DNA of 32,969 nucleotides from Woeseiaceae bacterium (GTDB taxonomy: Bacteria > Pseudomonadota > Gammaproteobacteria > Steroidobacterales > Woeseiaceae). Under the pieces are notes generated by a model that was not told where the DNA came from, searched no databases, and saw only the letters and a list, made by a program, of their open reading frames with translations. The position numbers and the translations under genes are program-made. The stretch is from positions 1 to 32,969 of the forward strand of contig JASJCH010000013.1 of NCBI GenBank assembly GCA_030066075.1. Reading direction: 5' to 3'. Below are positions 23,950 to 32,969 of the stretch, piece by piece (position 1 is the first letter of the stretch; each line of letters begins with the position of its first letter).

Positions 23950-25974
23950 ATGCGCACTATTTCCGTAACCCTTATCGTCTGCGCTGTCGCGTGGTCGGAC
24001 ATCGCACTTTCCCACGAGGGCAGCACCGAGCTCGTGGAGGAACTCATCGTCTACGGCCGAGCCCAGGAGATGATTGGCACAGCCAACTCCGCCTCCGAGG
24101 GCATCGTTGCTTACGACGACATCCGGCTGCCGCCGATGCTGCGCGTCGGCGAGCTGGCAGAGGCGGTGCCCGGCATGGTGGCCACGCAGCACTCCGGCAC
24201 CGGTAAGGCCAACCAGTACTTTCTGCGCGGCTTCAACCTCGACCATGGCACCGACTTCTCGGCGTTCGTCGACGGCGTGCCTGTCAACATGCGTACGCAC
24301 GGGCACGGCCAGGGTTACCTCGACCTGAACTTCATCATTCCGGAGCTCGTCGAGCGAACAACGTACAAGAAGGGTCCCTACTCCGCCGCCATCGGCGACT
24401 TCTCCTCGGCCGGCAGCGTCCAGTTCGATATGTACGAAAGCCTCGACGAGTCGTTCTTCAACATGACCGCAGGCCTGGACGACTACTACCGGGCGGTCGC
24501 GGGCGCGACCGGTGAATTCGCCGGCGGCACGATCACGGGCGCCTATGATTACACGACCTACAGCGGCCCCTGGGAACTCGATGAGGACCTGTCCCAGACG
24601 CGCTTTTACGCAAGTTACGCCGGCTCGGCAGGGGACCTCGAAACCCATTTCGCACTGCACGGCTATTCCGGGACCTGGAACTCGACCGACCAGATACCCC
24701 GTCGTGCCGTTCAATCCGGGCTCATTGACGAACTCGGGTTCATTGATCCGGATCTCGGCGGCCGCACCGACCGCTACAGCCTGACCGGCGATATCGGCAA
24801 CGATCAGTGGCGCGCGACGGCCTACGCCGTGGATTACGACTTTGGCCTTTACTCCAATTTCACCTACCTGCTGGACGATCCGGTCAACGGTGACCAGTTC
24901 GAACAGATCGACGACCGACGCATCTATGGCCTGCGGCTCGATGGCTCGACCGACACAAAGATAGGCATTAACTGGGGCGGCGACATTCGGTATGACGACA
25001 TTCGCAAGGTGGGCCTCTTCAAGACCACCGAGCGACAGCGGCGTGAAGCGGTGCGCACCGACTCGGTCGACCAGCTATCCGCCAGCGCCTATGCGGAGCT
25101 GGAATTCAATCCACGGAGCGACCTGCGTACGTCTGTCGGGGTGCGCGCCGACTACTACGACTGGGATGTCAGCGCGCTGCGCGCCGAGAACAGCGGCGAT
25201 GGGGATGATTTCCTCGTCAGCCCGACGCTGAACATTGCTTACAAGGTCAGCGATTCCGCCGAGCTCTATGCCAACTGGGGGCGCGGCTTTCATTCGAATG
25301 ACGTGCGCGGCAACACCATCACCGTGGACCCGGTGAGCGGCGACCCGGTTGATCCGGTCGATGCCCTGGTGCAGTCGAACGGCGCGGAACTGGGATTGCG
25401 CTTCGAGCGCGAGGATCGCTTCAACGCCACGGCGACGGCCTTCTGGCTGAACCTTGACTCGGAGCTGCTGTTCGTCGGTGACGCAGGCACCACCGAAGCG
25501 CTCGGCGCCACGACGCGCGTCGGCGTCGAACTGTCGACGTTCTACCAGGCCACGGACTGGCTGGCTATCAACTTTGCTTACACTTACACCGATTCCGAGT
25601 TCGACAAGGACACCGGCGACGGGCGCGAGATACCCGGCGCCATCGAGTCGAGCGCGACGCTGGGTCTGAACGCCGCCTGGGATAACGGGCTGTTTATCTC
25701 GGCGCGGGCACGGTACCTCGGCGAGGCGCCGCTGATCGAAGATGATTCAGTGCGCGCGCCGTCGTCAATGCTCGTCAATATCGGCGGTGGCTACCGCATG
25801 GGCGACTTCAGCTTCAGGCTGGACGTGTTCAACCTGTTCGACTCGAACGACTACGACATCGCGTATTACTACGCGTCGCGGTTGCCCGGTGAGCCTGTGG
25901 ACGGTGTCGAGGACATACACTACCGCCCGCTCGAGCCGCTCTCGGTACGGACGTCAGTCACCTATCACTGGTAA
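23950..25974 (+). CDS. TonB-dependent outer-membrane receptor
   Basis: Outer-membrane active transporter driven by TonB-ExbBD. The 674-residue protein has a signal peptide (residues 1-21, ending DIALS) and a TonB-box-like segment EELIVYG at about 30-36. A plug domain follows (LRVGELAEAVPGMVATQHSG, QYFLRGFNLDHGTDF, FVDGVPVNMRTHGHGQGYLD, TTYKKGPYSAAIGDFSSAGS), then a beta-barrel that ends in the canonical aromatic residue (SVTYHW). ATG 23950 has an AAGAGGCGG ribosome binding site. The ligand is unknown. It is convergent with, and 43 bp from, the peptide biosynthesis operon, so import of the product or a related compound is possible, but only position suggests this. No clear iron-response box was found upstream. 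Confidence 0.92.
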   Translation: MRTISVTLIVCAVAWSDIALSHEGSTELVEELIVYGRAQEMIGTANSASEGIVAYDDIRLPPMLRVGELAEAVPGMVATQHSGTGKANQYFLRGFNLDHGTDFSAFVDGVPVNMRTHGHGQGYLDLNFIIPELVERTTYKKGPYSAAIGDFSSAGSVQFDMYESLDESFFNMTAGLDDYYRAVAGATGEFAGGTITGAYDYTTYSGPWELDEDLSQTRFYASYAGSAGDLETHFALHGYSGTWNSTDQIPRRAVQSGLIDELGFIDPDLGGRTDRYSLTGDIGNDQWRATAYAVDYDFGLYSNFTYLLDDPVNGDQFEQIDDRRIYGLRLDGSTDTKIGINWGGDIRYDDIRKVGLFKTTERQRREAVRTDSVDQLSASAYAELEFNPRSDLRTSVGVRADYYDWDVSALRAENSGDGDDFLVSPTLNIAYKVSDSAELYANWGRGFHSNDVRGNTITVDPVSGDPVDPVDALVQSNGAELGLRFEREDRFNATATAFWLNLDSELLFVGDAGTTEALGATTRVGVELSTFYQATDWLAINFAYTYTDSEFDKDTGDGREIPGAIESSATLGLNAAWDNGLFISARARYLGEAPLIEDDSVRAPSSMLVNIGGGYRMGDFSFRLDVFNLFDSNDYDIAYYYASRLPGEPVDGVEDIHYRPLEPLSVRTSVTYHW

Positions 25975-26017: not shown

Positions 26018-26257
26018 CTAATTGGCAATACTGCCGATGTAGGTCTCAATACTCCGCAACGTACTGAAATTCTCGAGCGTCACGTCTTCCGGCGGAATGT
26101 GCACGTCACAGGTCGTTTCGATGTGCGCGATGAGCAGCGTCACACTGAGTGAATTGAGCGTCTCGGACAGCAGCAGGTCCTGGTCCGCGTCGATGACGAA
26201 CTTCGGATCGTTGAGGATCTCGGTCTGGATGTATTCACGAAGCGCGTCGATATTCAT
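26018..26257 (-). CDS. Stand-alone acyl/peptidyl carrier protein
   Basis: A 79-residue carrier protein expected to carry a phosphopantetheine arm on S36. The attachment motif is ETLNSLSV: the usual DSL is NSL here, an Asp-to-Asn change directly before the serine. The four-helix pattern is otherwise complete (DALREYIQTEIL, LLIAHIETTCDVHIP, DVTLENFSTLRSIETYI). The start overlaps the stop of the adenylation gene by 4 bp, so the two are translationally coupled and it is probably the partner of that enzyme. Together with the flavoenzyme gene upstream this matches the PltL-PltF-PltE arrangement. Confidence 0.88.
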   Translation of the reverse strand: MNIDALREYIQTEILNDPKFVIDADQDLLLSETLNSLSVTLLIAHIETTCDVHIPPEDVTLENFSTLRSIETYIGSIAN

Positions 26258-27825
26258 GCGGCACCGGTATTGACAAACTGGTTGATGATTTCCTTGCGAT
26301 CGATCTTGCCGCTGCTCGTGCGCGGAAACTCTCTCACGGCCAACAGGTTCTGCGGCACGGCATAGCCCGGCAGCTTGGTGCGCGCGTGCTGCAGCAGGTC
26401 GCCCACCTCGGCGCCCGACGTTTCTCGCAGTTTGACCGCAGCCATTATCGACTTGCTGCCCATGTCGTCGGGAACCACGAAAGCCGCGGCCTCCAGGACG
26501 TCGGCGTGTGTCGCCAGCGCCGCCTCGACCTCATCCAGCTCGACGCGGTGCCCGCGCGTCTTGACCATGCGGTCCTTGCGGCCGAGAAAGCGCAACAGGC
26601 CGTCCTCGTGGCGCACGACCATGTCGCCGGTCCGGAACCAGACGTCCGGGAACGGTCCGAAGCTGTCCCGGTACAGGTAGACGCGTTCGTTGAGATCCGG
26701 GCGGTTCCAGTAGCCCTTGGTCAGCGTGGAACTACGGATGCACAGCTCCCCTTCCTCGCCGATGCCGCAGTCCTGATCGTCTTCGTCGATAATCAGGTCG
26801 TGCGAGTTGACCGACACGGTGCCGATCGGGACCGGCTCGGGAAACGGCTCGGGGTGAGGTGGCAAATCGTAGACCGTGCACGAGGGCGCCTCCGCCGGTC
26901 CGTAGACATTGGTCCAGCGAACGTCGGGCAGCTGTTCCATGAGTTCCCGCAGATGCTTGGGCGGAAACGGTTCACCGCCGAACAGCACCCAGCGCAGCGA
27001 TGACAGGTCGCGCTTGTCCATCGCCCCCCGCTGCATCATGTCGATGAGCGTAAACGGCACGGTGAAGACAACGCTGATGCGCTCCTTCTCGATGTACTCG
27101 GTCCAGCTCGCCGCGAACTTGGTGACCGGCTCCGGCACGAGCACGACCGTCGCGCCGGACTGTGAGGTCGAGAAGAAGTCGAAGATACTCAGGTCGAAAT
27201 GCAGCGGCGCGTGGCTCGCGACTCGATCCGCCGCGGCCAGCCCGACGTGCTGTGCGCCCCAGCGCGCGTAGCTGATGCTGCCGTGATGGCTGTGCATCAT
27301 GCCCTTCGGCTGACCGGTCGACCCGGACGTATACATGATGTAAGCGAGATCCTGGTCCACGATCCAGACGTCGGGTTTCGTATCGGCCAGATCCTTGATG
27401 TGCTGCCAGCCTGTGGTCTGCAAATCGAGTTCGACGTCGACGCCGTAAATCCAGCCCTCAAAGGTACCGGACAGCTTCGCGAGCTTCGGTGCCATCGCGT
27501 CGGCGCTAATCACGTGCCGGATGTCGCAGTCGTCCAGGATGAACTGCAGGCGCTCGGTCGGCATGAACGGGTCAAGCGGCACGAAGATCCCCCCAGCCTT
27601 GAGCGCGCCGTAAATGGCTGTTCCCAGTTCGAGGGACTTGTGCATGTAAATGCCAATGCGGTCACCCTGCTGCATCCCGTTAGCGAGCAGCGCGTGAGCA
27701 AGCTGGTTACTCGCCCTGTCGAGCTCGGCGTAGCTGAGCTCGGCGCCGCTGCAACTGAACGCCACGTGATCCGGCGTCGTCCGCGCGAAATGGGTGACCG
27801 GCGAGTGAATGAGAAAGTCGAACAT
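26254..27825 (-). CDS. Stand-alone amino-acid adenylation enzyme (prolyl-carrier-protein ligase type)
   Basis: Activates an amino acid as AMP ester and loads it on a carrier protein. From ATG 27825 (ribosome binding site AGGGA) it has 523 residues; a longer reading to 28332 is antisense or frame-shifted over the neighbouring gene. All core motifs are present: A3 YIMYTSGSTGQPKG, A4 region HAPLHFDLSIFDFF, A5 NVYGPAEAPSC, A7 WFRTGDMV, A8 GRKDRMVKTRGHRVELDEVE, and A10 FPRTSSGKIDRKE with the catalytic lysine near residue 506. The HFDLSxFD region resembles L-prolyl and D-alanyl ligases. The context of a carrier protein and an acyl-CoA-dehydrogenase-like enzyme favours proline. Hand alignment gives pocket residues D, L, F, F, L, G, V, S, C, but I would not assign the substrate from this alone. 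Stop overlaps the carrier protein start. Confidence 0.87.
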   Translation of the reverse strand: MFDFLIHSPVTHFARTTPDHVAFSCSGAELSYAELDRASNQLAHALLANGMQQGDRIGIYMHKSLELGTAIYGALKAGGIFVPLDPFMPTERLQFILDDCDIRHVISADAMAPKLAKLSGTFEGWIYGVDVELDLQTTGWQHIKDLADTKPDVWIVDQDLAYIMYTSGSTGQPKGMMHSHHGSISYARWGAQHVGLAAADRVASHAPLHFDLSIFDFFSTSQSGATVVLVPEPVTKFAASWTEYIEKERISVVFTVPFTLIDMMQRGAMDKRDLSSLRWVLFGGEPFPPKHLRELMEQLPDVRWTNVYGPAEAPSCTVYDLPPHPEPFPEPVPIGTVSVNSHDLIIDEDDQDCGIGEEGELCIRSSTLTKGYWNRPDLNERVYLYRDSFGPFPDVWFRTGDMVVRHEDGLLRFLGRKDRMVKTRGHRVELDEVEAALATHADVLEAAAFVVPDDMGSKSIMAAVKLRETSGAEVGDLLQHARTKLPGYAVPQNLLAVREFPRTSSGKIDRKEIINQFVNTGAA

Positions 27826-27839
27826 CGTATCGTCCCTGA

Positions 27840-28985
27840 TTAAAGGCCAAGCAGGCGTGCAATGATGTTGCGCTGTACATCCGTGGTACCGCTGTAAATC
27901 GTTGCGCCGATTGCATCGCGCAGGTTGCGCTCTATTCCGGCTTCGGTGAGGTAACCGTCGCCACCGTGTATCGCTACTGCGTCGAGCGCCGTCTGGGTCA
28001 GGCACTCGCTGAGATAAATCTTGCTCAAGGCGGAGCCCATCATGTCGGCCGCGCCGTCCTGCTGCTTGCGGACCGTGTCGTACAGCAGCAGACGCGCCGT
28101 CTCGAGGCGCAGCTTCATGTCCGCGATTCGGTGCGCGATAGCCTGGTGCTTGCCGATCGGGGCGCCGCCCCGCTTGCGCTCGCGTGCGAAGGCCAGGCTC
28201 TGTTCCAGCAGGCGCTGCATCGCACCGACGTGCGGCGCCAGCACGAGGCTCCGCTCCCAGCTCTGGATGAAACCGAAGATACTCGCGCCGGCGCCCGTTT
28301 TGCCCAGCATCGAGCTGGAAGGGACACGGCAATCCTCGAGCAGCACGCGACCGTAAGGGGCGGTGCGGAGTCCCATCATCTCGTCCGGCTCACTCGCCGT
28401 GTAACCGGGCGTATCGGCATCGACGAGGAAGGTCGAAATGCCCCACTGGCCCGCGTCCGGCGCCGTCTTGGCGAACACGATCGCGAAGTCGGCGTTGGGC
28501 GCGAAGGTGACCAGCGTCTTCTCGCCGTTGAGCAGGAAATCATCGCCATCGGCAACCGCAGTGGTTTCTATGGCGAACGCATCGGAACCGCTGCTGTCTT
28601 CGTTCATGGCGTGGGCGCCGATCAGCTCGCCGCGCAACATGCCCGGGACGTACTTCTCGAGTTGTTCCTCGTTGCCGAATTGCAGCAAGGCGGTCTGGAC
28701 TCCCCACAGCTGCGTGCCGAGCGCGAACGCCAGCCCGTTGTCCTCGCAGCCATAACCGAACGCTTCCATCAGGAAAGCGACGAGGCTCGCGGGGTAATCC
28801 TTGCCACCGAGTTCCGCCGGCACGCGCCAGCCGAGCACGCCGAAGTCGGCACAGCTTTGCCACGCTTCTTTCGGGAATTCGCTGTTGGCGTCGAGCGCGC
28901 CGACATCGTGCTGCAGGCTTTCTTTGCAGAACGTGACGACGCCGTCATACAGGTCGCGCTCTTCGTTGTTCCAATCGAGGTCCAT
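27840..28985 (-). CDS. Acyl-CoA dehydrogenase-family flavoenzyme, prolyl-carrier-protein oxidase-like
   Basis: Predicted FAD enzyme of 381 residues from ATG 28985; a longer reading to 29093 runs into the divergent promoter region. The N-terminal helical domain, the middle beta domain (GAHAMNEDSSGSDAFA, FLLNGEKTLVTFAPNADF) and the C-terminal domain (PIGKHQAIAHRIADMKLRLE) are all present. Two active-site features fit the PltE-type oxidases, which turn carrier-bound proline into pyrrole-2-carboxyl thioester. A glutamate is at E244 in QSWERSLVLA, and the usual acyl-CoA dehydrogenase glutamate of the YEGT motif is replaced (IYSGTTDVQ). Position, 14 bp upstream of the adenylation gene, supports joint action. 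The alternative is an ordinary acyl-CoA dehydrogenase acting on another carrier-bound acyl group. Confidence 0.85.
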   Translation of the reverse strand: MDLDWNNEERDLYDGVVTFCKESLQHDVGALDANSEFPKEAWQSCADFGVLGWRVPAELGGKDYPASLVAFLMEAFGYGCEDNGLAFALGTQLWGVQTALLQFGNEEQLEKYVPGMLRGELIGAHAMNEDSSGSDAFAIETTAVADGDDFLLNGEKTLVTFAPNADFAIVFAKTAPDAGQWGISTFLVDADTPGYTASEPDEMMGLRTAPYGRVLLEDCRVPSSSMLGKTGAGASIFGFIQSWERSLVLAPHVGAMQRLLEQSLAFARERKRGGAPIGKHQAIAHRIADMKLRLETARLLLYDTVRKQQDGAADMMGSALSKIYLSECLTQTALDAVAIHGGDGYLTEAGIERNLRDAIGATIYSGTTDVQRNIIARLLGL

Positions 28986-29053
28986 TGCGTTTCTTATGTT
29001 TATATCAGGTCGTATCGACGCCGCGTTTGGCCTCGCAGACCTGTCAAAATCTA

Positions 29054-29070
29054 GCACACATTTTGTGTGC
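29054..29070. promoter_or_regulatory. Operator-like dyad in the divergent promoter region of the peptide cluster
   Basis: Perfect arms GCACACA/TGTGTGC around TTT, in the 156 bp between the flavoenzyme gene (minus) and the split PCP-TE gene (plus). A second palindrome, TGACGTCA, is at 29121-29128. No regulator gene is in the window. Confidence 0.5.
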
Positions 29071-29141
29071 GCCAACGCTATGCAGAACGCCACAGAAAGT
29101 TGTACTGTGCCGGGGATTGATGACGTCAGTCAGTAGACATA

Positions 29142-30491
29142 ATGAGTGAGTTGAGTAACAAGCTGGAACAGCTTTCCGACACGGACAGGGTGCGCCTATT
29201 CAGGGAGCTCATGGAGCGCTCTGGCGAGTCGCCGCCACCGTCTGTCAGGGAGCTCGTGCTGGTCTATGAAGAGGGTTCAGACGCCAATCCAGAGGCACTG
29301 CGGGCCGCTGCGGCGTCGCGGCTTCCGGAGCACGAGCGTCCGACCCGTTTCATAGCCACCGGCAGCCTGCCACGGACCCCTCATGGCAAGCTCGACAGGC
29401 GCGGGTTGCCGGGTCTCGTCCGACCGGAGCAGCCCGCAACGGAGACTGCCGACGCTGTCCAAACTGGTGCTAACGGCGTTATGTCATCTGCCATCGCGAC
29501 ATTCAGCAAGGTGCTGGGCGGCGTGGCCGTCGGGCCTGATTCGAATTTCTTCGAACTCGGCGGGCACAGCCTGCTGGCTGTCGATTGCATACTGGAGCTC
29601 GAGGAAAGTAGTGGTGAGCGCATCAGCATCACGGAGTTTCTCAACCACCCCACTCCGCGCGGTATCGCGGCGCTCCTGCACGAACAGAGCGAGCGCAAGT
29701 ACGATTACATCTACCCGGTCAGTGAGAATACGTCCGGCCTGCCCGTTTTCGTCTTCTCGTCGGCACTCCTGGCCTACGCGCTGAAACCGCAGAGGGAAGA
29801 CTGGAGCATCTACGGTGTGCAGTTTCGGTGGCGCGACGACGACGACCGCGAGATTCACTACGACAGTGTTCAACACATGGCTGAGTTCATTGCCGCCGAA
29901 ATCTCCCACCTCTGCGGCCACGGCGACTTCCTGCTGATCGGCTCGTCTTTCTCGGCGATGGTGGCGTTCGAGGTGGCGCGACAGCTGCAGTCAACCGGGC
30001 GCGAACCCGCACTGACAATTCTCATCGAACCCTCGCTGCTGCATGGCCGCCGCGCGTGGTTCGAGTTCGATCTCCACAAAGCGGGGAAGCTGAAACAGGG
30101 CCAGAATCCCTATCTCAAGTGGCTGCTCGTCAACAATCCGCTCCGTGCACGTTTCTGGCGCAGGCTTTCGGAGCTGTCCGCGAAGCGCCGGGAAGCGGTA
30201 TTGAGCGACGGCAGTCCATCCGGAACCCGCGAAGAAGCCGACGCCTACGAATTTGCTCGCACCAAGAGTCTCCGTCTCAGGTACCAGCCGTCCGAATATT
30301 CGGGCCCGTCGACGCTGATTGCTTGCCTCGACAACGCCTGGCTTATCGGCCGCGATTGGCAGCCACGGCTCAACGAGGACTGCCTGATGCACATTCTCGA
30401 CACCGATCACCGCGGCATATTGCGGGACCCGTTCATGTCGAGGTCCGTGGTTCCCGTCGTCGTCGAGGAGATCGAACAGAGCGTGACCTGA
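29142..30491 (+). CDS. Split NRPS half: adenylation C-terminal subdomain, PCP and thioesterase
   Basis: A 449-residue protein with three recognisable parts. Residues about 36-90 are only the end of an A domain: LVLVYEE, RLPEHERPTRF (A9 region) and LPRTPHGKLDRRGL (A10, lysine K83). The ATP-binding core A1-A8 is absent. Residues about 110-175 are a carrier domain with FFELGGHSLLA (S143). Residues about 195-449 are an alpha/beta-hydrolase thioesterase with nucleophile S269 in GSSFSA, where the usual final glycine of GxSxG is serine, and H423 in DTDHRGIL. The first 35 residues form a probable amphipathic helix (LEQLSDTDRVRLFRELMERS) before a PPP stretch. The start ATG 29142 has a poor ribosome binding site. 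The missing A1-A8 part is in the convergent gene 5 bp away. Confidence 0.85.
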   Translation: MSELSNKLEQLSDTDRVRLFRELMERSGESPPPSVRELVLVYEEGSDANPEALRAAAASRLPEHERPTRFIATGSLPRTPHGKLDRRGLPGLVRPEQPATETADAVQTGANGVMSSAIATFSKVLGGVAVGPDSNFFELGGHSLLAVDCILELEESSGERISITEFLNHPTPRGIAALLHEQSERKYDYIYPVSENTSGLPVFVFSSALLAYALKPQREDWSIYGVQFRWRDDDDREIHYDSVQHMAEFIAAEISHLCGHGDFLLIGSSFSAMVAFEVARQLQSTGREPALTILIEPSLLHGRRAWFEFDLHKAGKLKQGQNPYLKWLLVNNPLRARFWRRLSELSAKRREAVLSDGSPSGTREEADAYEFARTKSLRLRYQPSEYSGPSTLIACLDNAWLIGRDWQPRLNEDCLMHILDTDHRGILRDPFMSRSVVPVVVEEIEQSVT

Positions 30492-30496
30492 GGGAA

Positions 30497-32969
30497 CTAC
30501 GCTCTTCCGGTCAGGTACTTGTCGACCAGGGCGTGCGCCTGGTCCTCGGGCAGTGCGGCAAGCAGGTCCTCCAGCGACCGCCCGTCCCATGGAATGACCG
30601 CCACTTCCGGCCCGGAGGCGCTCAGCGACTGCTCGATGGATTCAATGCCGATGCGGTAGCCCCGGTGCTTGACCTGTTCGTCGATGCGGCCCAGGTAGTA
30701 GAGCAGGCCATCGCTGCCAACCCTCACGCGGTCCCCGGTTCGATAAGCACGGCCATCTTCGTCAAGCGGATGGCTGACAAACCCGCCATTAGCCATTCCA
30801 ACGTAACCTTCGGCGATGCCGTGTCCGGCCAGCACCAGTTCGCCGGATAGCCCGCGCGGGACCGGGTTGCCATAAGTGTCGGCGACGAGCGCTTGCGTCA
30901 GGCTCAGGGGCCGGCCGATCGGGACGGGCTCGCCGGCACCCTGTTCAAGTGGGTGGACCGTGCTCCAAACCGCCATCTCGGTCGGCCCGTACTCGTTAAA
31001 GAGAGCGGCACTGGCCGCGCGTCCATAGTGGTTCCTGATAGTGGTTGCCGTGCACGCCTCTCCGGCAACGATCACGAGCTTCATGGAATCGAGCGGCTGC
31101 TCGCTGATGCGGCAGATGTCGCTCCACTGCCCCGGGAGACACAGCGTATGGGTAATGCCGTCGCGATGAATCAGCTCGGCGACAGCGTCGGCCGCACGCG
31201 CAGTCTGCCGGTCGACAAGCCGCAGGCAGCCTCCTGTCGACAAGGTCCACCACAAGCCAGCGACGGCGCTGTCGAAAGCGAAGCTGGATAACAGCAGAAA
31301 CGTCTCGGGCGGCCAATTCGAGTAGACCTCGCTCCGCTCCGCGGTCGAGTACACGGCGGCGCCGTGACTGACACGCACGCCCTTCGGTTTGCCGCTCGAC
31401 CCGGACGTGTAGACCACGTAAGCGATATCGCCGGCTGCGTTCGTTGCCGGCGTCAGCCCCGAACTCAACGCGTCGCTGAGCGAGTGGCAGCGATCGACGC
31501 AACCGTCAGGCGCCTGCAATCCATCCTGGAGCAACACCAGCGGCCGCCCGGCATCGGCCAGGATGTGCTCGATTCGGGACGGCGGATAGTTCACGTCGAC
31601 CGGCAGGTAGCTCCGCCCCGAGCGCAGCGCGCCGATCATTGCCGCGATCATCTCCGGCCGCCAAGAGCCGATCACCGCGACGGTCGTGTCGTCGTCGCCA
31701 GTGACCGAATCGATATAACCAGCGATGGCGTCGGCGCGCGCCGCCAGCTCACCGTAGCTGATCTCGCGTTGGTCACCGTCTGTATCCCACCGCAACGCCG
31801 TAGCGTCGGGTTCAGACTCCGCGTGACGGTAGAACGCGTCGTGCAATTGTCCGGTCGACGCCGGCGCGGTGGTTATCCGCTGCCAGTCTGCGCGCAGTTC
31901 CTCGAGGCCTTTGTCGCCAATGAGGCTGCAGCGCCGCCAGTCGGTGTCGACATCGGCCGCGAGACTGGCGAGCAGCGCCTGGTAGTGATCGAAAATTGCC
32001 GCCAGTTCCGCGCCGTCATAGACCCCGGTGTTGAACTCAACCGCAAAGGTCAGCCCCTCGTCGGACGTGATCACGAAAAACGTCAGGTCAAACGCCGTGC
32101 CCGCATAGTCGAGCTCCTCCACCTCGAGCACTTCGCGCGACAGCAGACTGGGCTGGGGCGCCGTGGACACCAGCGTGAACAGTGTGGAGAAAAGCTGGCC
32201 GCCGCCAGCGCGTGCCGGCGCGAGGCGCGCAACCTCGTCCAGCGGCAAACCGCCGTGTGCTATGGCATTGCCGACGACCGACCGTGTCTCCTCCAGCACA
32301 TCGCGGAACGTCGCGGCTGCCTCGAGGTCCGGCCGCACGATCAGGACGTTCTGGAAGCAGCCCAGGGCTGCCTGTTGCTGCGCGCCGACTCGCGTCGAGA
32401 ACATCGTGGCAAGGTGAATGTCATCGCGGTCGTAGTAGCGACCCAGCAACACTGTCCAGGCCGCGAGAAACCACTGGTACAGCGATACGCCTTCCCTGGC
32501 GGCTGCGTCACGACACTGTTCCGCGAGGCCAGCGCGTGCCGGCGCGCGAATCAGCGCCCCCTTGCCGTCCCCTGCGACACTGTGCGTTCCTGCCAGGGGC
32601 AGAGGCCCGGCGACCGGCAGATCGTCCAGGCATGACCGCCAGAACTGCTCCAGTGCCGGACGCCTGGCATCGAGGCTCGTTCTTTGCTGCTCGTAGGTAC
32701 TCACCAGGTTCGGCGGCGGCTGAAGTTCGGACGCTTCACCGTCGTACAGCGTGCTCAATTCCGCGGTCAGCACGTCGACGGCCTGGTGGTCGGCAAGGAT
32801 GTGGTGAATGGCGACCACAACCGCGGCCTGCCCTTTTCCCTGGAAGACGTGTACCCGGAGCAGTTCTCCCTCCTCCAGTCGGAACGGCTTAAAGGGTCCG
32901 CGGCAGTAGCGGCGGGCTTCCTCCCATGGATCCCCGTCGCAGACCACCAACTCTAACGGGATCGCCGCG
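30497..32969 (-). CDS. Split NRPS half: condensation domain plus truncated adenylation domain (5' end outside window)
   Basis: Open to the window edge; about 823 residues are visible, and roughly 90 or more N-terminal residues of the C domain are missing. The C domain has the catalytic motif HHILADH (the last usual glycine is His) and FSTLFTLVST. The A domain has A3 IAYVVYTSGSSGKPKG, A4 FDSAV, A5 NEYGPTEMAV, A6 GELVLAGHGIAEGY, A7 YRTGDRV and A8 GRIDEQVKHRGYRIGIE. It then stops about 45 residues after A8: A9, the A10 lysine and any carrier domain are absent. The last 26 residues, including LLAALPEDQAHALVDKYL, look like an amphipathic helix rather than A-domain sequence. By hand alignment the pocket residues are D, S, A, C, I, A, E, V, W; I do not assign a substrate. 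More modules may lie upstream. Confidence 0.9.
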   Translation of the reverse strand, partial: AAIPLELVVCDGDPWEEARRYCRGPFKPFRLEEGELLRVHVFQGKGQAAVVVAIHHILADHQAVDVLTAELSTLYDGEASELQPPPNLVSTYEQQRTSLDARRPALEQFWRSCLDDLPVAGPLPLAGTHSVAGDGKGALIRAPARAGLAEQCRDAAAREGVSLYQWFLAAWTVLLGRYYDRDDIHLATMFSTRVGAQQQAALGCFQNVLIVRPDLEAAATFRDVLEETRSVVGNAIAHGGLPLDEVARLAPARAGGGQLFSTLFTLVSTAPQPSLLSREVLEVEELDYAGTAFDLTFFVITSDEGLTFAVEFNTGVYDGAELAAIFDHYQALLASLAADVDTDWRRCSLIGDKGLEELRADWQRITTAPASTGQLHDAFYRHAESEPDATALRWDTDGDQREISYGELAARADAIAGYIDSVTGDDDTTVAVIGSWRPEMIAAMIGALRSGRSYLPVDVNYPPSRIEHILADAGRPLVLLQDGLQAPDGCVDRCHSLSDALSSGLTPATNAAGDIAYVVYTSGSSGKPKGVRVSHGAAVYSTAERSEVYSNWPPETFLLLSSFAFDSAVAGLWWTLSTGGCLRLVDRQTARAADAVAELIHRDGITHTLCLPGQWSDICRISEQPLDSMKLVIVAGEACTATTIRNHYGRAASAALFNEYGPTEMAVWSTVHPLEQGAGEPVPIGRPLSLTQALVADTYGNPVPRGLSGELVLAGHGIAEGYVGMANGGFVSHPLDEDGRAYRTGDRVRVGSDGLLYYLGRIDEQVKHRGYRIGIESIEQSLSASGPEVAVIPWDGRSLEDLLAALPEDQAHALVDKYLTGRA

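Follow-up and report, generated by a model that had tools for sequence, protein, structure and literature searches.

The closest described counterpart of the system considered here is the myxobacterial corallorazine pair Crz1/Crz2, where a functional adenylation (A) domain was described in 2024 as split between two proteins, with in vitro evidence (PMC11342130). In that report, Crz1.2, which has an embedded N-methyltransferase, gave no turnover alone, while almost quantitative turnover was seen when it was mixed with Crz2 (PMC11342130). A split of this kind is also present in contig C25 of an uncultured Woeseiaceae bacterium, taken from a metagenome-assembled genome (MAG), which was analysed over its whole length of 32,969 nucleotides (nt) and is referred to as the window. 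In this window, the A domain of a nonribosomal peptide synthetase (NRPS) termination module is divided between two convergent genes, a plus-strand gene (29142-30491) and a minus-strand gene (30497-32969), whose stop codons face each other 5 nt apart. The split and its coordinates had been given in a first-pass annotation of this DNA, and both are borne out by the open reading frames (ORFs), by Pfam and by an A7-A10 profile; it knew of no described system of this kind, and the corallorazine pair is one (PMC11342130). Sequence comparison makes it very probable that the two proteins assemble in trans into one working termination module, made up of condensation (C), A, peptidyl carrier protein (PCP) and thioesterase (TE) domains.

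When both proteins were scanned with Pfam and matches were read up to E 0.1, the minus-strand protein was found to contain Condensation and AMP-binding (positions 1-383 of 384), with AMP-binding_C not found in it, and the plus-strand protein to contain PP-binding and Thioesterase, together with only positions 34-76 of 76 of AMP-binding_C (E 0.032, below the cut-off). An A7-A10 profile was also built in-house from 22 A domains (120 positions); on it, the C-terminus of the minus-strand protein covers positions 1-66 and the N-terminus of the plus-strand protein covers 68-118, which are complementary halves (1-56 and 68-118 in a scan of the whole window). Among 590 window frames of at least 30 aa this profile has three matches, namely the two halves and a complete A domain at 26257-27828. 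All four domains of a C-A-PCP-TE termination module are present across the two proteins rather than in a single polypeptide, and they are divided as in the corallorazine kind of split, with A1-A8 on one protein and A9-A10 plus the carrier domain on the other. Nothing is inserted between the halves, which are two polypeptides and not one chain with an auxiliary domain as in an interrupted A domain, and no methyltransferase family was found by Pfam in either half, the first of which closes with a 26-residue tail.

By sequence match, the minus-strand and plus-strand proteins cover neighbouring parts of EntF (5ja1_A; 470-880 and 904-1166), AB3403 (4zxh_A; 503-888 and 910-1164) and SrfA-C (2vsq_A; 474-892 and 914-1147), with 21-23 residues separating the two matches. 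The structural model of the A core is confident (mean predicted local distance difference test score, pLDDT, 84.8; top Foldseek match 6ea3_B), with low confidence in its last 60 residues (pLDDT blocks 49-62). For the model of the plus-strand protein, AB3403 and EntF were top-ranked by Foldseek, yet with TM-scores of just 0.34-0.36.

The same convergent pair, in the same orientation, has been found in a second MAG (Woeseiaceae MO_071.B18, genome G024, locus L029), where the stops are 4 nt apart, the plus gene (L029 6001-7356) is 76% and the minus gene 80% identical to that of the window, and the junction is identical in arrangement and contains no N. In a third MAG (genome G038, locus L011), the plus gene is 66% identical over residues 1-295, where it is cut by the contig end, and the dehydrogenase gene of the cluster is also there. 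The ratio of nonsynonymous to synonymous substitution (dN/dS) was taken between the window and L029 from Nei-Gojobori counts, in which short parts carry wide error, and amounts to 0.168 for the first half, encoded by the minus gene, and 0.179 for the second half, encoded by the plus gene. Within the first half it is 0.136 for the C domain, 0.193 for the A core and 0.178 for the C-terminal tail (26 codons); within the second half it is 0.046 for the N-terminal tail (34 codons), 0.059 for A9-A10, 0.046 for the PCP and 0.228 for the TE. By these ratios, purifying selection acts on both halves.

The search of related genomes that had been advised returned not only this second convergent pair but also an intact homologue. 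The cluster has a homologue in G080, a genome whose order is the same but whose family differs; there, the module is intact in a single C-A-PCP-TE frame (1582 aa), which is 33% identical to the window module in the first half and 30% in the second; the accompanying dehydrogenase, ligase and TonB-dependent receptor are 49%, 41% and 42% identical to their window neighbours. In six further sets (G044, G064, G078, G091, G517 and G597), the break in a related A domain lies in that region too, the halves are codirectional, and a free-standing methyltransferase gene lies between them in every case. Measured on the A7-A10 profile, the last matched position is 44-88 in the 8 first halves, and the first is 48-69 in the 9 second halves. 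The 12 gene junctions in the codirectional sets comprise 8 overlaps and 4 gaps (2, 8, 22 and 42 nt), and such mostly overlapping or close junctions suggest translational coupling.

The free-standing methyltransferase, which we take to resemble guanidinoacetate methyltransferases, has generic Pfam matches only (E 2e-4 to 5e-6); its copy in G044 has an in-frame stop, and the copies in the other five sets show none. A profile of it, which was not compared with the Crz type, has no match in the window below E 2.5. A search with one methyltransferase sequence gave 4 matches in 296 genomes of the order, and a 4-sequence profile gave 2 full-length matches and 1 partial match in 369 genomes of the class and 2 partial matches in 398 genomes of the phylum, these samples overlapping one another; no further match was found in the small orders of G517 (2 genomes) and G597 (4). 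All six full-length matches belong to split sets, no C-A gene is listed in the stretches surrounding the partial matches in G711 and G719 (a further one being in G606), and no fused single-protein ancestor with this methyltransferase was found among the order, class and phylum samples. In a tree of A cores, built from 42 of 53 domain matches (11 partial or duplicate rows excluded) with 31 rows labelled intact by default and not individually checked, the 8 split domains are clustered, requiring 3 changes where shuffling gives 7.4 on average; starred branches force at least 2 of the 3. The window and L029 are grouped with G597 and not with G044 (91/72, not starred). At the nine positions that presumably line the substrate pocket, DSATIAEVW is read in 6 of the 8 splits and in intact G080, while G091 is one letter and G517 two letters off.

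At the cut, the first half ends in a C-tail of 26 residues (SLEDLLAALPEDQAHALVDKYLTGRA) and the second half begins with an N-tail of 34 residues (MSELSNKLEQLSDTDRVRLFRELMERSGESPPPS), whereas in the intact homologue A8 and A9 are linked by a short loop and neither tail has a counterpart. The first-pass annotation had described a joint almost free of gaps, which is right in that the halves are complementary but leaves out both tails. The N-terminal pattern is similar across 9 aligned second halves. When a profile was built from the six codirectional N-tails and scores were ranked against 2000 shuffles, 4 shuffles scored as high as the window (G000), none as high as L029 and 40 as high as G038, and leaving out each of the six in turn gave 0, 0, 0, 0, 0 and 2 shuffles. 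Two helices are predicted with low confidence in the N-tail (3-9 and 13-26), and two, also with low confidence, in the C-tail (426-431 and 435-449 of a 450-aa fragment); these predicted helical tails may act as a docking pair.

In the mechanism proposed for this module, the minus-strand protein would provide the C domain, the substrate and ATP pocket, the A core through A8 and the opening part of the A-subdomain, and the plus-strand protein would provide the remainder of that subdomain, including the A10 lysine, on one chain with the PCP and TE. We infer that the two proteins associate in trans to restore the A-subdomain, with the tails as the putative docking pair, and that the A10 lysine (residue 83), which is present in all 9 second halves, would support adenylation after assembly. 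Rotation of the subdomain would then carry the PCP to the active site, which should still be possible because most of the A-subdomain and the PCP share one chain, after which the C domain would extend and the TE release. Assembly in trans had been proposed in the first-pass annotation, and this part of its reading has gained indirect support from the conserved pair, dN/dS, the intact homologue and the retained lysine. Relative to the order in G044, the methyltransferase is absent from the window and the second-half gene is inverted, which would point to loss of the former and inversion of the latter; the convergent layout is explained most simply if the second-half gene underwent a small inversion within an already split set, which assembly in trans would make tolerable. 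A broader scheme, which we regard as possible but lean slightly against, is that in four families of one class an interrupted A domain was dismantled into separate A-core-plus-tail, methyltransferase and tail-plus-A-subdomain-PCP proteins whose self-assembly relies on the helical tails flanking the A8-A9 cut, with assembly in trans permitting methyltransferase loss and gene flip. If this were true, the tails would be a natural docking pair acting inside a catalytic domain.

Several observations weigh against trans assembly of the two proteins or against the role given to the tails. The complete convergent pair is known from two genomes only, the first half was not found in G038 (search E up to 1e-30), and the window module is just 28-38% identical to the intact and codirectional split modules. 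The A core of the intact G080 module is placed in the tree as sister to the G044 split (98/89), which implies that splits arose more than once or that re-fusion occurred. Likeness of the C-tail between lineages is weak, with 45 of 2000 shuffles scoring as high for the window and 23 of 2000 for L029, and with 0, 0, 0, 18, 51 and 189 of 2000 when each set is left out in turn, the last being G044. The model of the plus-strand protein is poor (mean pLDDT 57.3), its residues 1-40 falling in blocks of 30-41, and among the loci examined the N-tail profile has no match below E 0.1 in ORFs outside the split genes (next 0.11). On the latter result, the N-tail was dropped as a candidate for the common NRPS docking helix found before C domains.

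Another complete A domain that serves the PCP from the flanking sequence had been named in the first-pass annotation as a finding that would speak against its reading, and a complete A domain does lie nearby, at 26257-27828, two genes away. It allows for an account in which A9-A10 is vestigial, this stand-alone A domain loads the PCP-TE protein in trans, and the C-A1-A8 protein is only a condensation partner, and modules split over proteins with an A domain from elsewhere are known, as described for SyrB1/SyrE (PMC8949500). A vestigial A9-A10 is difficult to reconcile with its dN/dS and with a lysine kept in 9 of 9 second halves, and a condensation-only first half with an A core that is constrained too. 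Furthermore, a similar ligase accompanies the intact module in G080, so the nearby ligase need not explain the split, and no stand-alone ligase was seen among the main ORFs of at least 150 aa in the examined stretches of G064, G078 and G091, which cover their contigs in part or only just in full. Loading in trans is judged unlikely, and the ligase probably has a separate role.

That the halves are decaying fragments of one former gene would agree with neither being a complete enzyme and with the in-frame stop in the G044 methyltransferase, but their frames are open, dN/dS is 0.17-0.18 in both, and splits are retained in several lineages, leaving decay highly improbable. An assembly or binning error that inverts part of one continuous gene might be suspected in a MAG contig with a gene at its end; the second MAG has the same junction, which makes an error at 30490-30500, a reservation of the first-pass annotation, very unlikely, and an inversion made in assembly would not furnish the cut ends with extra tails that bring a start and a stop of their own, so that we give such an error negligible weight. 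Both explanations also suffer because the pair recurs and both halves are under purifying selection. A reversible DNA inversion that joins and separates the halves is suggested by the fact that a single simple inversion would turn the convergent arrangement into the codirectional one seen in G044, but the orientation is the same in both complete loci and the plus gene lacks long, near-perfect inverted repeats on its flanks, the best 25 of 30 repeat pairs in 28900-31000 being 12-27 nt long and 70-92% matched. Such a phase switch, for which suitable repeats are missing in 28900-31000, was rejected as extremely improbable.

Table 1. Coordinates of the split module and of associated features, in the window unless another locus is named.
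Feature	Coordinates	Strand	Basis
Second-half gene: N-tail, A9-A10, PCP, TE; 449 aa	29142..30491	+	ORF, Pfam and A7-A10 profile
Extra N-tail at cut, residues 1-34	29142..29243	+	Absent from intact homologue; aligned with 8 other second halves
A9-A10 part of A-domain C-terminal subdomain	29244..29429	+	Profile positions 68-118 of 120
A10 lysine, residue 83 (codon)	29388-29390	+	K83 invariant
PCP domain, residues 120-179, GGHSLL	29499..29678	+	PF00550 E 9.1e-12
TE domain, from residue 213, nucleophile motif GSSFSA	29778..30488	+	PF00975 E 1.5e-10, residues 213-296
5-nt gap between convergent stop codons (L029: 4 nt)	30492..30496	.	
First-half gene: C, A1-A8, C-tail; runs off contig end (939 aa in L029)	30497..32969	-	
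Extra C-tail at cut, last 26 residues	30500..30577	-	dN/dS 0.178 over 26 codons
A-domain core A1-A8 and first part of A-subdomain, residues 379-797	30578..31834	-	PF00501 E 2.6e-64
C domain, residues 27-357	31898..32890	-	PF00668 E 3.7e-42
Acyl-CoA dehydrogenase, same cluster	27843..28985	-	Closest to prolyl-PCP dehydrogenases PigA/RedW
Complete stand-alone A domain (ligase), same cluster	26257..27828	-	A7-A10 profile match
TonB-dependent receptor near cluster	23950-25974		
Perfect 17-bp palindrome GCACACATTTTGTGTGC between divergent genes	29054-29070		
Upstream NRPS with interrupted A domain	L029 10183-13350; L048 5340-9647; L052 2-4789; L053 10266-14000; L069 5521-9852		

The dehydrogenase of the cluster scores 361 and 357 bits with the PigA and RedW models, both below the cut-offs, and has relatives of 44-90% identity in the loci L029, L050, L065, L066 and L069, while relatives of the ligase (41-93% identity) are found in L029, L048, L050, L065, L066 and L069. 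This dehydrogenase and a stand-alone ligase co-occur in the window, L029, L050, L065, L066 and L069, hinting at a pyrrole-type starter unit. Relatives of the TonB-dependent receptor are found by the cluster in L029 (89%), L050 (75%) and L069 (42%), and several clusters have nearby genes that we take to be HupE/UreJ-like, so a metal chelator is a possible product. The window, L029 and L050 share GSSFSA as the TE nucleophile motif, which has the usual form in L048 (GYSLGG) and L069 (GFSFGG).

In five loci (Table 1), an upstream NRPS has an A domain that is interrupted between A8 and A9 by a PP-loop domain resembling N-acetyl sugar amidotransferases (TIGR03573 WbuX, E 4.1e-40, below the cut-off, in a scan of L048; the other four are 52-62% identical to L048). 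Its pocket residues presumably are Asn-like, which suggests an amide-to-amidine change on the residue that it loads. The palindrome between the divergent genes has no second copy in the genome even when 1 mismatch is tolerated, and was rejected as a shared operator, L029 keeping one arm only and L011 neither; a consensus scan of 28900-30700 found no promoters.

Among known systems, EntF, SrfA-C and AB3403 have the same four domains in the same order as the window proteins, which match them side by side, and differ in being single polypeptides. SyrB1/SyrE likewise has one module over two proteins, where the cut falls between domains and not inside the A domain as in the window (PMC8949500). Interrupted A domains, such as those of TioS, KtzH and McyA, use the same A8-A9 site, and each is one continuous protein with an insert, as opposed to two proteins without an insert in the window (PMC8949500, PMC11355689). 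Among the papers listed in searches of the open-access literature, with most subscription journals outside this scope, no description of split A domains other than corallorazine was found.

The principle of a split A domain has already been published once, and the window does not represent a new one. As in the window, the cut in Crz1/Crz2 falls after A8 and A9-A10 opens the second protein with a carrier domain. Activity of the Crz proteins is reported only with both present (PMC11342130). The same source gives adjacent ORFs, an N-methyltransferase that directly follows A8 and ends the first half, and a thioreductase terminus, whereas the window has convergent genes, no methyltransferase in either half and a TE terminus. 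Both cut ends in the window bear tails. Where a cut inside an A domain is natural and kept by selection, it marks a site at which NRPS enzymes can be dismantled and rebuilt from separate proteins, as is sought by engineers. Genome-mining tools should likewise allow for a C-A protein that lacks A10, or a short protein of A10, PCP and TE encoded on the opposite strand, being one half of a functional module. What is new here is the convergent layout, the absence of the methyltransferase, the tails and the recurrence of the split as three-gene sets. To the single example of corallorazine are now added several loci, an intact homologue to compare them with, and tails whose extent at the cut is defined.

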